Origin: Natronosalvus caseinilyticus
GTDB taxonomy: Archaea > Halobacteriota > Halobacteria > Halobacteriales > Natrialbaceae
Length of the DNA: 64,000 nucleotides
Direction: 5' to 3'
Assembly: GCF_017357105.1 (NCBI RefSeq)
Contig: NZ_CP071596.1
Coordinates: forward strand, 1,798,001-1,862,000
Below, in pieces: positions 1,590-8,294 of this stretch. Each line of letters begins with the position of its first letter. Within the stretch, counting starts at the first letter, position 1. Under the pieces are notes generated by a model, which was not told the DNA's origin, did not search any database, and was given only the letters and a program-made list of their open reading frames with translations. Position numbers and translations under genes: made by a program.

Positions 1590-1865
1590 AAGACAGTAGT
1601 ATTTGTTAGCCAAATAATGGCTTGTATATGTCCGTCAGCGGATTCTTTAGAGAAGTAAGTAGTTTTTCATCATTATACTACTCAAGTCGATTGTAGAGAC
1701 AATTACTTGGTAATCAATATCATATTAACACCTATTACTCTTATAATTTTTCGATAGTAAGTTTTATTATTGTCTATACTATAGTACATCCTACGTCGCT
1801 GATTTCGAGAGAAAAAAGAAAAGAGAGTGGGAGTCACCTCTTTGCTCCATGTAGTTGTTGATGAT

Positions 1866-1893
1866 GCATTTGATGTTACGACAGGTCAAATGC
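1866..1893. repeat. Hairpin 1 of the structured region
   Basis: GCATTTGA (1866-1873) and TCAAATGC (1886-1893) are perfectly complementary around a 12-nt loop. Outside them, GATG/CATC and GTAG/CTAC pairs can extend the stem to about 1846-1910. Confidence 0.5.
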
Positions 1894-1933
1894 TTCTCTC
1901 ATCCATCTACTTGACTTAGCATCTTTGTGTAGC

Positions 1934-2029
1934 GGCGTTCACTCCGGTTTCAGTGTTCCTCAAAGAGCCACTCTCAGCACCGCCCGTGGCTCTTGTGACG
2001 CTCCATCTGAAACGCGGAGGTGAAGCGCC
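1934..2029. repeat. Hairpin 2: long bulged stem with an internal stem
   Basis: The 20-nt arm at 1934-1953 (starts GGCGTTCACTCC) pairs with the 23-nt arm at 2007-2029 (ends GGTGAAGCGCC), with three small bulges. Inside, AAGAGCCAC (1963-1971) pairs perfectly with GTGGCTCTT (1986-1994). The segment AGTGT can pair with ACGCT using one G-T pair, which is compatible with RNA of the plus strand but not the minus strand. This is one of the most extensive fold-backs in the window, and nothing around it codes for protein. Confidence 0.55.
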
Positions 2030-2058
2030 TTGATCCAACTCTTAGTTGAGATTGGATT

Positions 2059-2179
2059 GGTTGGTGTTATTCCCCTTCTTGGTAATGAGGGTGGTTGGAT
2101 ATGGAGATGGTCTTAGAGAGTATATCTCCCTGGTTGGTGCATCCTCATAACAGGGAGCGAGGGGGATGAATAACCAACC
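2059..2179. repeat. Hairpin 3: three nested stems over 121 nt
   Basis: GGTTGG (2059-2064) pairs with CCAACC (2174-2179), TTATTC (2067-2072) with GAATAA (2168-2173), and CCC (2073-2075) with GGG (2163-2165). A middle stem joins ATGAGG (2085-2090) to CCTCAT (2143-2148). An apical stem joins GGAGAT (2103-2108) to ATCTCC (2124-2129). The GGTTGG motif recurs near 2093 and 2132. The nested order of all arms argues for one folded unit. Confidence 0.5.
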
Positions 2180-2237
2180 CCCTTCACTCTACGCAGTGTA
2201 GAAAAGGCTTCATCATCTCATGTCGTCAGTGGAGGTG

Positions 2238-2273
2238 TAAGGAGTACGTTGCGTTGTTGTGGAGTACTCCTTA
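2238..2273. repeat. Hairpin 4: perfect 10-bp inverted repeat
   Basis: TAAGGAGTAC (2238-2247) and GTACTCCTTA (2264-2273) are perfectly complementary around a 16-nt loop. It is the last of the four hairpins and could end a plus-strand transcript. It lies about 100 bp beyond the stop codon of the convergent HNH gene, so it could equally terminate that gene. Confidence 0.5.
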
Positions 2274-2975: not shown

Positions 2976-3019
2976 CTATTTACACTTACTGCCTAAACAC
3001 GATTAGGTTATCTAATTAG

Positions 3020-3040
3020 ACAATAATGTATTGTTATAAA
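3020..3040 (-). promoter_or_regulatory. TATA-like box and small inverted repeat before the HNH gene
   Basis: On the minus strand TTTATAA at 3034-3040 lies about 60 bp before the ATG at 2975. The repeat ACAATA (3020-3025) / TATTGT (3029-3034) abuts it on the downstream side, where a repressor could block initiation. The assignment rests on position and symmetry only. Confidence 0.35.
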
Positions 3041-3135
3041 TTATTATCCACAGGAGTTATTAGAAAGACTAACTTCTGATCTTAGATAGGTGCCTGTCTC
3101 GTTGAGAAGTAAGGCACAAAGAATAGATAAAATGA

Positions 3136-4293
3136 CTAGTTACTATCCATTCTGTCCAGAGCGTTTCTACGGTCCTCCACAGGTGCCTGATCGTATTTGA
3201 AGGTAGTGCGAGGTGATTGGTGCCGTAACTGACTTTGTGCCGCTGCAAGCCCTTCTTCTCTTGCCATATATGTTCCTACAGAGTGCCGAAGACTATACCA
3301 TGTTAGAGAGCGGTTCTCCATACTAATGTTCGCTACCTCTGCTATCTTTTCGAGTACGTATTTGAGAGACGATGATCTATAGGGGTTTCCGTGACGAGTC
3401 ATCCAAAGTTGGTCACTATCTACATACCTGTCATACAATTTTCTTTCTTCAAGCCAATTCTGTAACAACTCTGCTGTAGATCGACGTAGTGAGACAATCC
3501 AGTTCTCACGGTTCTTACTTGATTCTTCTTTTGGGATACGAAGAACTGCATTGTCTATGTCTACCCATTGGACTGTTGCTCTCCCTACTTCGATGGGACG
3601 TAATCCAGCATCAAGTGAGACACAGATTAGTGAAGCATATTTGAATCCCTCTGCTTCTTCAAAGTCAGAGGGTTGCACTGCTGATACTGGTCTATCAAGA
3701 CGATACGAGAGGTATTCTTTCCATCGTTGTCGTTCTTCGGGCGACATAGCTGCATACGCAGGAATAGAGTCCCATTGCAGTGCTGCTTCTCTAAGCCTCT
3801 GGCGTTCATCTCTGGTAAGATAATCCTGTGGTGAGGTTCCTGTAGAGCCAGTAAAGGAGATATCTGGTTCCCATTCATCTCCTTTCCAGCGAAAGAACAT
3901 CTTCAAAGATTTCTGGATGTTTGACTTGTGGCTCTCACTGTAGTCACTGTAGGCTAATTCTTGTGTATAGGCATCTGCATGGTCTGTCGTAACAGTAGTA
4001 GTGTATCCATCGTAGTTATCCCAGACCCATCGATAGAATACATCAGTATCATGAGCACGCCGTCTCACAACGTCAAAGGAATATCCCTTCGCTTTATCAG
4101 GGTCTTTCCCCAGGTGGAGCATCCACTTGATTAGTTCTTCACGGTGATGTCGGTAGTCAGTTTGTTGTTTAGTGTTCAATCGCTCTCTCGTTGGCTCAGG
4201 TATGAGGATGATCGTTCCCTCATCAGTACTGATTCTATCGTTATCTGGAGCACGTTGAGTGTCAAACGAGTGTCTCTGATCTTCTATCGCCAT
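3136..4293 (-). CDS. Tyrosine recombinase / integrase of the element
   Basis: This is a 385-residue integrase with an N-terminal SAM-like core-binding domain (about residues 40-150) and a C-terminal catalytic domain. Catalytic landmarks are Arg in DAGLRPIEV, Lys in PKEESSKNR, TWYSLRHS (box II, with Tyr in the first His position), His in LRHQS and the nucleophile Tyr in FKYDQ. ATG at 4293 is preferred over an upstream TTG at 4341, because a TATA-like TTTTAC lies about 25 bp ahead of it. It is the last gene before the tRNA-like att sequence, the usual place for an integrase that uses a tRNA gene. GC and codon use differ sharply from genes to the right. Confidence 0.88.
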   Translation of the reverse strand: MAIEDQRHSFDTQRAPDNDRISTDEGTIILIPEPTRERLNTKQQTDYRHHREELIKWMLHLGKDPDKAKGYSFDVVRRRAHDTDVFYRWVWDNYDGYTTTVTTDHADAYTQELAYSDYSESHKSNIQKSLKMFFRWKGDEWEPDISFTGSTGTSPQDYLTRDERQRLREAALQWDSIPAYAAMSPEERQRWKEYLSYRLDRPVSAVQPSDFEEAEGFKYASLICVSLDAGLRPIEVGRATVQWVDIDNAVLRIPKEESSKNRENWIVSLRRSTAELLQNWLEERKLYDRYVDSDQLWMTRHGNPYRSSSLKYVLEKIAEVANISMENRSLTWYSLRHSVGTYMAREEGLAAAQSQLRHQSPRTTFKYDQAPVEDRRNALDRMDSN

Positions 4294-4412
4294 TAGATTA
4301 GACACCTCTGTAAAATCGCTAGACGGGTGTCTGATAACCAATTCAATCGAGCTTGGATTAGCGTCATGGTTTGGTCACTCTCTTGGTGAGAGCAAATACG
4401 AGGCGAGGTGAG

Positions 4413-4474
4413 ATCCGGCCGATATCGTATGATATCTGTCGGATTTCGTGGGGGCACCCTACGGAGTGTCCCCA
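4413..4474. repeat. Two adjacent palindromes between integrase and att site
   Basis: A 32-bp near-perfect palindrome at 4413-4444 has arms ATCCG/CGGAT and an inner GATATC/GATATC pair, centred at 4428.5. Directly after it, TGGGGGCAC (4449-4457) pairs with GTGTCCCCA (4466-4474) with one G-T pair. ACGGAGTG is directly repeated at 4461-4468 and 4474-4481. The site lies upstream of the integrase and touches the tRNA-like sequence, so recombinase arm sites or an integrase operator are the likeliest roles. Confidence 0.5.
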
Positions 4475-4554
4475 CGGAGTGGCAGAGCGGCCCAACGCGC
4501 CTGCCTTGAAAGCAGGTGGCGCAAGCCTCATGGGTTCAAATCCCATCCTCACCG
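4473..4554 (+). pseudogene. tRNA-Ser(TGA)-like sequence lacking a matching 5' acceptor strand; probable attR
   Basis: From 4480 the sequence follows a class II tRNA. The anticodon stem is CCTGC (4500-4504) / GCAGG (4512-4516), with anticodon TGA at 4507-4509. The long variable arm contains GGC-GCAA-GCC. The T arm ATGGG-TTCAAAT-CCCAT spans 4530-4546, and CCTCACC plus discriminator G spans 4547-4554. A working tRNA would need GGTGAGG before 4480, but the 7 nt there are CACGGAG, which pair at only three positions. This is what an att copy carrying the tRNA 3' portion would look like, with the intact gene at the far left end of the element, outside the window. A functional tRNA with an odd acceptor is less likely. 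Confidence 0.6.
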
Positions 4555-4676
4555 CTTCTACGACGAACGGACGTGAGGAGCGAAGCGTGAACGCTGGGAT
4601 TTGAATCAGGGAGGTCGCGCACAGCGAGCGACGCGAGCGAGCACGTCCGACCGTGGTTCAAATCCCATCCTCACCG
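4533..4676 (+). repeat. 22-bp direct repeat of the tRNA 3' end (tandem att remnants)
   Basis: GGTTCAAATCCCATCCTCAC plus CG occurs at 4533-4554, as the end of the tRNA-like sequence, and again exactly at 4655-4676. The roughly 100 bp between them is GC-rich and has no gene. Sequence after the second copy resembles the spacer in degenerate form (GAGCACGTCCGAC near 4640, GAGCACGTTCGAC near 4749). This suggests repeated integration or excision at the same tRNA target. Confidence 0.6.
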
Positions 4677-4968
4677 TTTTTGTTGCGAACACTACCGTGA
4701 GCAATAGCACGGCTCACAGGGAACGATACTGGGTTGTGCGAACGAAAGCGAGCACGTTCGACTGTGATTCGACTCGCGTCAACTCGCCAGCTCGAGACCG
4801 GCTCGTTGTTCGAGGTGTTCGATCTGAATCGGTTCTCGAGCCAGAACACCTGCTCACATATCAATACTACGAATAGTATAGTAATGAATCTCGACTCGAG
4901 CCGTCAACCTCGACCAAGTGCCGAATGCCGACCGCGACGAAGGATTTGCCTGTGAAAGCCGTCGTCCT
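4677..4968. other. Gene-free junction between element and chromosome
   Basis: This is a degenerate echo of the att spacer (about 4690-4790), followed by ordinary GC-rich intergenic DNA. A TATA-like AATAGTATAGTAAT lies around 4871-4884, upstream of the DUF892 gene. Short open frames here have Arg/Ser-rich translations and are not supported as genes. Confidence 0.4.
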
Positions 4969-6438: not shown

Positions 6439-7443
6439 ATGACCGAGACGGACAGCGTTCGGAGCGGCGAGGGACCGTCGATACTGGTCCTCCGCAAGGG
6501 AACGCACGGAACCCCCATCGAAGAGTACGCGAACGCACTGCGAGAACGCGTTTCGAATCCGGACGTCGAGATTACCGTCGCCAGCACGCCAGTCGAAGAA
6601 CGGGAGGCGATCCGAGACGCCGAGATCGTCACCGGAATGACGATCGACGAGTCCCTCCTCGAGCACGCCGAGAACCTGGAGCTATTCGCCTGCGCCTACG
6701 CGGGTACCGGTCACCTGCCCCTCGAGACCCTTGAGGAGATGGGCGTCACGGTGACGAACGCGTCGGGCGTCCACGGCCCCAACATCGGCGAACACGTCCT
6801 GGGGGCGATCCTCTGGTTCACCCGCCGGTTCCACGTCGCGTCCCGCCGCCAGCGTCGCCGCGAGTGGCGCCACTACCAGGCCCACGAACTGCAGGGCTCG
6901 ACGGTGACGGTCGTCGGCCTCGGTGCGATCGGTCGATCCGTCTGTGCGCGCCTCGAGCCGTTCGGCGTCGACGTCCAGGCCGTCCGCTACACGCCGGAGA
7001 AAGGCGGCCCGGCGGACGAAATTTACGGCTTCGACGCGGACGATTTCCACGACGCCCTCTCCCGGACCGACTACCTCGTGTTGGCGTGTCCGCTCACCGA
7101 CGAGACCCGGGGGCTGGTCGACGCGGCGGCGTTCGACACCCTCCCGCCGAACGCGGTGGTGATCAACGTCGCCCGCGGCCCGGTCGTCGACACCGACGCG
7201 CTCGTCTCGGCGCTCCGTCGTAACGGCATCCGCGGGGCCTCGCTGGACGTCACGGATCCCGAACCCCTGCCGGAAGACCACCCGCTGTGGACGCTCGAGA
7301 ACGTCCAGATCACTCCACACAACTCGGGGCACACACCGAAGTACTACGACCGTCTGGCCAACATCGTCGCCGGAAACGTCGAGCGGGTGCTCGAGTCGGG
7401 TTCGTACGAGGGGCTCGAGAACCAGGTGTTGCCCCGGCCGTAG
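6439..7443 (+). CDS. D-2-hydroxyacid dehydrogenase (NAD-dependent)
   Basis: This 334-residue protein belongs to the D-isomer 2-hydroxyacid dehydrogenase family, which interconverts 2-oxo and D-2-hydroxy acids with NAD(P)H. The Rossmann motif is VVGLGAIGRS (about residue 160). The catalytic Arg is in NVARGPVVD, the Glu in DPEPLPEDHPLW and the His in ITPHNSGHTP. The N-terminal catalytic half includes the GTGHLPLE segment. ATG at 6439 is chosen because homology begins with the ILVLRKG strand soon after. The exact substrate (glyoxylate, phosphoglycerate or another) cannot be read from sequence. It lies downstream of the crotonase gene. Confidence 0.9.
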   Translation: MTETDSVRSGEGPSILVLRKGTHGTPIEEYANALRERVSNPDVEITVASTPVEEREAIRDAEIVTGMTIDESLLEHAENLELFACAYAGTGHLPLETLEEMGVTVTNASGVHGPNIGEHVLGAILWFTRRFHVASRRQRRREWRHYQAHELQGSTVTVVGLGAIGRSVCARLEPFGVDVQAVRYTPEKGGPADEIYGFDADDFHDALSRTDYLVLACPLTDETRGLVDAAAFDTLPPNAVVINVARGPVVDTDALVSALRRNGIRGASLDVTDPEPLPEDHPLWTLENVQITPHNSGHTPKYYDRLANIVAGNVERVLESGSYEGLENQVLPRP

Positions 7444-7509
7444 CCGGACGATCGGTTCCGGGTCGTCGGTATCGACCGCAGCGACAACCCTTTTCGACTC
7501 GCTGGCCGA

Positions 7510-8217
7510 ATGGCCGCTATGACCGTCACGTTCGACTCACTTCGTATCGACTGGCACGGTTACGCGACCGTCCGCCTCGAGGGCGAGACTGGCACCGTCG
7601 TCTACCTCGACCCCGGCCGGTACGGCGTCCTCGACGACGTCGAACCGAAAGACGGCGACCTGATTCTCGTGAGCCACGACCATCACTACGACCCCGACGG
7701 CATCCGGCGCGTCGCACACGAGGACGCCATCGTCGTGGTCCACGAGGCCGTCGACGCCGACGACATCGACCGCGTCGACGAACAACCCGAGGCCCTTCCC
7801 TACGAGGTCGAACGCGTGCGGGAGGACGAGTCGTTCGTCCTCGGCCCGCTCGACCTCTTCACGACGCCCGCGTACAACGAGCCAAACGGCCCGTACACCC
7901 GCGACGACGGCACGCCCTACCACCTCGAAGGCGAGGGCTGTGGCTTCGGCGTGACGATCGACGGCATCTGTGCGTTCTGGCCCGGCGACAGTGACGTCCT
8001 TCCGATTCACGAGAGACTCGACGTCGACCTCTTGCTCCCGCCGATCGGCGGGAGTTACACGATGGATCGCCACGACGTCGCCGACCTCGCTGAAACGATC
8101 CGGCCCGACCTCGTCCTCCCGATCCACTACGACACGTTCGAGGCGCTCGAGACCGACGCCGACGCGTTCGTGCTCGACGTAGCGAGACGTGCGGTTCCGG
8201 TCGTTCTCGACGAGTGA
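7510..8217 (+). CDS. MBL-fold metal-dependent hydrolase (UlaG-like)
   Basis: The sequence of 235 residues shows a metallo-beta-lactamase fold of the UlaG/UPF0173 type. DWHGYATVRLE starts strand 1, SHDHHYDPDG gives the first metal-binding cluster, FWPGDSD gives the bridging acid and LPIHYDTFEAL gives the C-terminal His. Such proteins bind two metal ions and cleave phosphoester or lactone bonds; the substrate here is unknown. ATG at 7519 is an alternative start 9 bp downstream. A second UlaG-like gene lies at 57575-58297 in this window. Confidence 0.85.
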   Translation: MAAMTVTFDSLRIDWHGYATVRLEGETGTVVYLDPGRYGVLDDVEPKDGDLILVSHDHHYDPDGIRRVAHEDAIVVVHEAVDADDIDRVDEQPEALPYEVERVREDESFVLGPLDLFTTPAYNEPNGPYTRDDGTPYHLEGEGCGFGVTIDGICAFWPGDSDVLPIHERLDVDLLLPPIGGSYTMDRHDVADLAETIRPDLVLPIHYDTFEALETDADAFVLDVARRAVPVVLDE

Positions 8218-8294
8218 CCGTCACGTCGAGGCAAGTCTCAGAATAACCTATAAGTTCCACAATAATTACGTCGCGCGGCTCGTACTCATCGGTG

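Follow-up and report, generated by a model that had tools for sequence, protein, structure and literature searches.

A non-coding, structured module of about 400 nt is present in two diverged copies within a 6.3-kb integrated element of Natronosalvus caseinilyticus, and the hairpin at its tip carries a 16-nt loop that is conserved on plasmids, on integrated elements and among dispersed repeats of other haloarchaea. Tentatively, and with less than even confidence, we favor the reading that in mobile elements the module works as a hairpin of single-stranded DNA, specific to one strand and comparable to a plasmid single-strand origin or ssi site. The window analyzed is a stretch of 64,000 nt (contig NZ_CP071596.1, positions 1,798,001 to 1,862,000, forward strand); coordinates refer to it unless prefixed by a contig, and negative positions lie upstream of its first base.

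A duplicated module in a 6.3-kb integrated element

The att repeats of the element are 6,297 bp apart and both copies of the module lie between them. One repeat (81 nt) copies the 3' part of tRNA-Ser; the identical repeat (C1:1796182-1796262) is located in the intact tRNA-Ser gene (C1:1796176-1796258). Besides the two copies, the element contains two small ORFs and genes for a short recombinase, an HNH protein and an integrase. The features within the window are as follows.

1-139, + strand: 3' part of copy A; the whole copy starts at about C1:1797660 (window -340); fold z -5.2 (-220 to 19) and -4.6 (-100 to 139)
993-1589, + strand: tyrosine recombinase, catalytic domain only, 198 aa, between the copies (PF00589, E 3e-11)
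1712-1789, + strand: AT-rich, promoter-like block conserved 5' of both copies in the A/B alignment (CGATAGTAAGTTTTATTATT in B, CGATAGAAAGACTTATTGTC in A)
1790-2290, + strand: the module as copy B, homologous to copy A (z about -6 on either strand)
1848-1912, + strand: helix CATGTAG/CTACTTG around the hairpin at 1866-1893; its copy A counterpart is fully paired (CATGTAG/CTACATG)
1934-2029, + strand: long bulged stem bearing the conserved tip, from folding
1962-1995, + strand: family hairpin, 9-bp stem and conserved 16-nt loop (45.2 bits with the R2 model, built without it)
1971-1986, + strand: conserved loop CTCTCAGCACCGCCCG (family form CTCTCNGCACNGCCCG), from comparison with the family
2055-2180, + strand: second long bulged stem; the most conserved A/B block is 2050-2149 (82-86% identity)
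2238-2273, + strand: 3' hairpin AAGGAGTAC.../GTACTCCTT, with low identity to copy A (0.32-0.46)
2370-2975, - strand: HNH endonuclease gene with a hydrophobic C terminus, convergent with copy B (PF01844, E 8.6e-12)
3136-4341, - strand: tyrosine integrase of the element, 401 aa (PF00589, E 6e-18)
4479-4559, + strand: att repeat, 81-nt copy of the tRNA-Ser 3' part

The integrase is 44% identical to haloviral integrases, and the HNH protein (201 aa) has HNH as its sole domain. Relatives of the short recombinase sit on haloarchaeal plasmids; no family hairpin was found near five of them, and 16 loci yielded no link between the module and either the short recombinase or the HNH gene. Two unlike tyrosine recombinases, one reduced to its 198-aa catalytic domain and one a full-length integrase, thus share a single 6.3-kb element. 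No Rep was matched among five element proteins using Pfam and PHROG models, a set that lacks Rep-Arvir itself.

The first-pass annotation had described four consecutive complementary-arm structures (1866-1893, 1934-2029, 2059-2179 and 2238-2273) as a candidate large structured non-coding unit of the integrated element, two of them being long bulged stems with ordered inner stems of a kind that random DNA rarely makes. All four are present at these positions. When folded as RNA, the segment 1820-2300 reached -188.7 kcal/mol on the + strand (z -5.95) and -164.8 kcal/mol on the - strand (z -6.58), energies outside the shuffled range on each strand (0/100 shuffles as low). The annotation was right about such a unit. 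Folded singly, each of the four pieces was unusual on at least one strand (+/-: 1860-1896, z -2.9/-3.6; 1922-2040, -3.4/-4.1; 2041-2185, -3.1/-2.1; 2230-2280, -4.1/-4.3). A fold scan of 6.6 kb around the element gave strong signals at the copy B site, at -220 to 139 and at 4340-4699 (the tRNA-Ser repeat); the signals at -1060 to -701 and about 380-740 were weaker. The annotation could name no known RNA class, and none emerged here: with Rfam covariance models at gathering score, tRNA was the sole match in the window, the module had none, and 14 related loci contained no family above that score except one tRNA. Accordingly, the module does not qualify in Rfam as a group II intron, HEARO, GOLLD, ROOL, OLE, RNase P or SRP RNA. 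An assignment to HEARO/omega RNA was also rejected on context, where an adjacent IscB or TnpB is expected and the neighbor is the HNH-only protein.

The second structured site, at -220 to 139, is explained by its being a diverged copy of the copy B module. A blastn search of the genome placed copy A at C1:1797662-1798051, 71% identical to 1780-2360; the conserved loop of this copy occupies window positions -168 to -153. Copy A begins before the window and was therefore out of view for the first-pass annotation. The two copies share the module of about 400 nt together with the promoter-like 5' sequence, and hence more than the hairpin alone. Their loops, CTCTCAGCAC(C/A)GCCCG, differ at a single base, and in the apical stem the alignment shows AAGAGCCAC/GTGGCTCTT exchanged for ATGAGAAGG/CCTTCTCAT with pairing retained. 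Compensatory changes between A and B alone numbered 18, which does not beat column shuffles (mean 12.2, maximum 20); the claim of covariation therefore rests on the family hairpin described below. BLASTN of the module against 124 other genomes of the family, 391 genomes of the class, phages and plasmids recovered a full-length homologue only in its own genome.

A hairpin family with a fixed loop and variable stems

A weak BLAST match in genome G216 proved to have this loop on a stem unrelated to those of A and B, within another integrated element (integrase, Mrr nuclease and SWIM genes), where the hairpin lies in a 1.4-kb non-coding stretch (z -5.3). A loop-only pattern search of 391 genomes returned 14 matches, compared with three for the reversed pattern. 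Apart from A and B, pairing at 7 or more of the 8 arm positions was seen in 4 of 12 matches, where chance would give 0.6% per match; viral contigs yielded 85 distinct exact matches to the loop, none of them paired to that degree. The viral-contig matches were all chance-like and were set aside, as were eight bacterial matches from the species genome collection, judged to be chance, and matches L222, L223, L224 and L226, which have no stems. L227, whose 10-bp stem is out of register, was kept out of the models.

In an initial model of eight hairpins (R1), seven of nine pairs were changed on both sides. Searching the class with R1 identified many further hairpins, which were sorted into kinds by their stems; kinds beyond the three listed were also found.

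Class D, dispersed: GCTnnGCGRSATATCC...GGATAGNG...
Class P, plasmid: TTCCGGGCRTGCGGGCG...CGCCCGTTCCGGG
Class S: CCTCCCCARCCGACTCGCT...AGCGAGTCCCTCGCGCGCG

Over 28 relatives, all nine pairs were changed on both sides and the covariation score was 1.02 (0.21 shuffled, at most 0.21 slid). Paired cells amounted to 92.9%, compared with 48% shuffled and at most 50% slid, a figure that is inflated because the sequences were partly picked by a model favoring paired arms. Compensatory changes are found both in the paralogue, copy A, and in the relatives. Two of the conditions set to refute the earlier proposal, absence of covariation and a folding energy within the shuffled distribution, are accordingly answered in its favor. 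Only 4 of 252 stem cells were G-U. The stem sequences vary freely and share no common TATA-like box, whereas the 16-nt loop retains 14 fixed positions on unrelated stems across families.

A second model (R2), built from the 28 relatives without A, B or the G216-element hairpin, provided a clean test: these three scored 35.3, 45.2 and 32.6 bits, respectively, and the next best match 15. For the copy B hairpin this corresponds to E 1.1e-8 in 94 kb and about 5e-7 over the genome, values that are rough because calibration was shortened. By the definition of the family, a loop CTCTCNGCACNGCCCG closed by a complementary stem, R2 places both B and A within it. We conclude that the hairpins are real and that the tip with its fixed 16-nt loop constitutes a family spanning haloarchaeal plasmids, integrated elements and dispersed repeats. 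The family was in none of the databases searched, and no description was found in the literature, which is weak evidence of novelty since most subscription papers were outside reach. The 3' half of the loop resembles the 16S rRNA decoding-site stretch ACCGCCCGU, but mimicry was discounted, as that stretch includes variable positions of the loop.

Copy number differs widely among genomes. R2 detected 52, 44, 34 and 22 copies in G235, G256, G328 and G246, respectively, and three strong copies in the source genome. Many of the dispersed copies are near-identical, and the copies are intergenic in mixed orientation; class D units follow no clear rule of orientation relative to genes. Tandem direct repeats, each about 54-57 nt long, often lie ahead of class D units (L242, L269, L282, L277 and L293); each repeat ends in GAAAGCCCYCGNCCCGCTCGC, a strand of the outer helix of the unit itself.

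Most inspected plasmid relatives lie upstream of OB-fold/RPA-like genes

Class D was found in 17 named plasmid records, mostly at one place each and in Haloarcula, and in no phages; class P was found in 108 named plasmid records. The class P unit (L251, L254, L326, L362 and the 108 records) comprises about 200 nt of non-coding sequence that is at least 95% identical across many haloarchaeal genera. In 8 of 11 inspected plasmid records an OB-fold/RPA-like gene on the same strand follows the hairpin unit at a distance of 0.3-0.7 kb; the other three do not show this arrangement. The annotations of these eight genes are SOSS complex subunit B, replication factor A, DNA-binding protein or hypothetical protein. 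The Haladaptatus and Natrinema proteins are 57% identical and the Haloarcula protein, more distantly related, shares their domain; their Pfam matches to OB folds are weak and below curated cut-offs. When the hairpin search was joined with a separate protein search, the gap between hairpin and gene was 387-412 nt in five genomes and 335 nt in a sixth, a set that includes the source genome's own second contig. In G128 both are present, far apart. Seven of the 11 inspected plasmids carry a mating-pair-formation type in PLSDB, as a raw count.

Several loci depart from this arrangement. In Haloarcula plasmids L358-L360 (at about 3000-3120) the class D outer helices bear the tip loop CAAACCGCA in place of CTCTCNGCACNGCCCG, so the conserved loop is not always present there; in L360 the CTCTC loop lies on a separate hairpin, TGGCGCT/AGCGCCA, further downstream. 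From these sequences the hairpin tip looks swappable. The Halomarina sp. BCD28 plasmid (L353) has a 1.7-kb non-coding stretch (6542-8225) 5' of an OB-fold gene that lacks the family loop and folds strongly (6560-7100, z about -5.5); structured non-coding stretches upstream of OB-fold genes may be general. In the Halorarius litoreus plasmid (L367, 1801-3750) the class P hairpin is followed by a small ORF and TnpB, with no OB-fold gene, where TnpB has perhaps been inserted. On the second contig, about 3.7 kb from the class P hairpin there, G000:C2:156809-156877 matches the RNase P RNA model at 26.3 bits, below the cut-off and probably by chance.

Possible action as RNA, as a repeat or as single-stranded DNA

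Could the module be a large non-coding RNA, duplicated in tandem and made on the + strand from the AT-rich block, with an exposed loop as the binding site for some conserved protein or RNA of the host? This interpretation, the one put forward in the first-pass annotation, is a close rival of the reading favored here. The promoter-like block is conserved 5' of both copies and would be the candidate promoter (about 1712-1770), copy B has no long ORF, and unpaired stretches including CACCTCTTTGCT and AGCATCTTTGTG are conserved between A and B. The + strand A+B consensus fold reached -78.4 (column shuffles -54.7, sd 6.0), but the - strand consensus is equally significant (-62.2; shuffles -41.8, sd 4.6). 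One-sided G-U changes between the copies number 17 on the + strand and 4 on the -, the pattern expected of a + strand RNA; against this, family stems are nearly all Watson-Crick, no T-rich terminator was seen directly 3' of the module, and G-U pairs in copy B are not enriched over shuffles (12.1% vs 16.9% on the + strand, 3.5% vs 8.7% on the -). The G-T pair that the first-pass annotation took as an argument for + strand RNA consequently carries little weight. Class D units have 1.9% G-U on the + strand, less than in shuffles for those units that were examined; copy A shows no depletion on that strand and is more RNA-like than copy B. G-U counts do not separate RNA from DNA, because the RNase P and SRP RNAs of the source genome, which lack clear G-U depletion, behave no more clearly; the fold z-scores of the module exceed those of both RNAs on both strands. 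None of this evidence is decisive between RNA and DNA. Of the earlier proposal, structured and non-coding stand, while action as RNA is not established given that both strands fold equally; the DNA-level role it named as the main alternative is at least as likely, in view of the plasmid relatives 5' of OB-fold genes. The dispersed copies might instead suggest a non-autonomous repeat (REP, BIME or MITE-like) whose hairpin would be mobilized through its loop by some recombinase or transposase, the element then carrying two old insertions. Four genomes with 22 to 52 copies, together with tandem repeats that end in half of the outer helix, argue for this, but it is improbable: the copy number typical of such repeats occurs elsewhere and not in the source genome, A and B share a whole module with its 5' sequence, and the spacing to plasmid OB-fold genes is fixed. 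Correction alone, in the absence of selection, can make a palindrome perfect, and chance inverted repeats might have been kept neat by template switching during replication; this account is already disfavored, and very improbable, because 14 of the 16 loop positions stay fixed on unrelated stems across families and none of the 85 viral-contig loop matches has 7 or more of its 8 arm positions paired.

The single-stranded DNA reading is supported by conservation of the loop while the stem changes with compensation in the 28 relatives, by the almost exclusively Watson-Crick family stems and equal single-stranded DNA energies of copy B on the two strands (-76.5 on the +, -76.6 on the -), by G-U contents of class D units and copy B that are low relative to shuffles, by the same-strand OB-fold/RPA-like genes that follow the hairpins on plasmids, by the mating-pair-formation types that most inspected plasmids carry, and by the integrase and nuclease genes present in both integrated elements. 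On this reading, the excised or transferred element would pass through a single-stranded stage, in which the strand would fold and expose the loop; a replication, priming or OB-fold protein would recognize the loop in this form, and second-strand synthesis or establishment would begin at the hairpin. The reading is weakened by the window and G216 elements themselves, which have neither an OB-fold gene nor a recognized Rep or relaxase, and in both of which the module sits between convergent genes. It is also weakened by heavy dispersal in some chromosomes, which is unexpected for an origin, by the + strand G-U behavior of copy A and the 17 to 4 asymmetry, and by Haloarcula pNG500-type units that keep the outer helices with another loop.

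The family may bear on how haloarchaeal plasmids and small integrated elements make their second strand or become established after transfer. The short motif marks candidate cis-acting sites on over 100 plasmids, and in integrated elements too, and predicts an OB-fold protein partner; were the module instead an RNA, it would define a new family of archaeal RNA that shows strong covariation and already has a search model. A broader proposal, which we regard as less likely than not, is that the hairpins form a new and widespread archaeal single-stranded DNA class, read through the 16-nt loop, that would serve as a second-strand initiation or early-expression site coupled to OB-fold proteins, the counterpart of sso or Frpo/ssi.

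Comparison with known systems

The ssoA-type single-strand origins of rolling-circle plasmids are long imperfect hairpins in which the loop sequence is conserved and the stem variable, as in the present family; the ssoA loop is, to our knowledge, unrelated in sequence, and the window element differs in having no Rep gene found. Like REP and BIME sequences, the family includes dispersed intergenic palindromes, but it has a fixed long loop on a variable stem and a link to plasmids and integrated elements. GOLLD, ROOL and OLE are likewise large structured non-coding units, some of them in mobile elements (PMC12286853), whereas the module is archaeal, without an Rfam match and at most a candidate RNA. 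The betapleolipovirus SNJ2, a haloarchaeal integrative element with a Rep-Arvir origin, has a conserved origin hairpin that is essential: replication was lost when its loop was mutated (PMC13107129). The SNJ2 hairpin is located 3' of the Rep-Arvir gene, and no such gene is recognized in the window element. As far as tested, the module is not assigned to either the Rep-Arvir origins or the Frpo sites. The Frpo/ssi sites of F and ColIb-P9 are stable non-coding stem-loops, two in F, one of them upstream of ssb, with promoter boxes conserved in the stem (PMC9849209, PMC11541004); here the stems vary and the loop is conserved. A hairpin directly 5' of an ssb-type gene is found among the plasmid relatives and not in the window element. 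By analogy, the Frpo hairpins of the F plasmid may offer the nearest mechanism, since on plasmids the relatives likewise precede a same-strand gene of the OB-fold/RPA-like kind.
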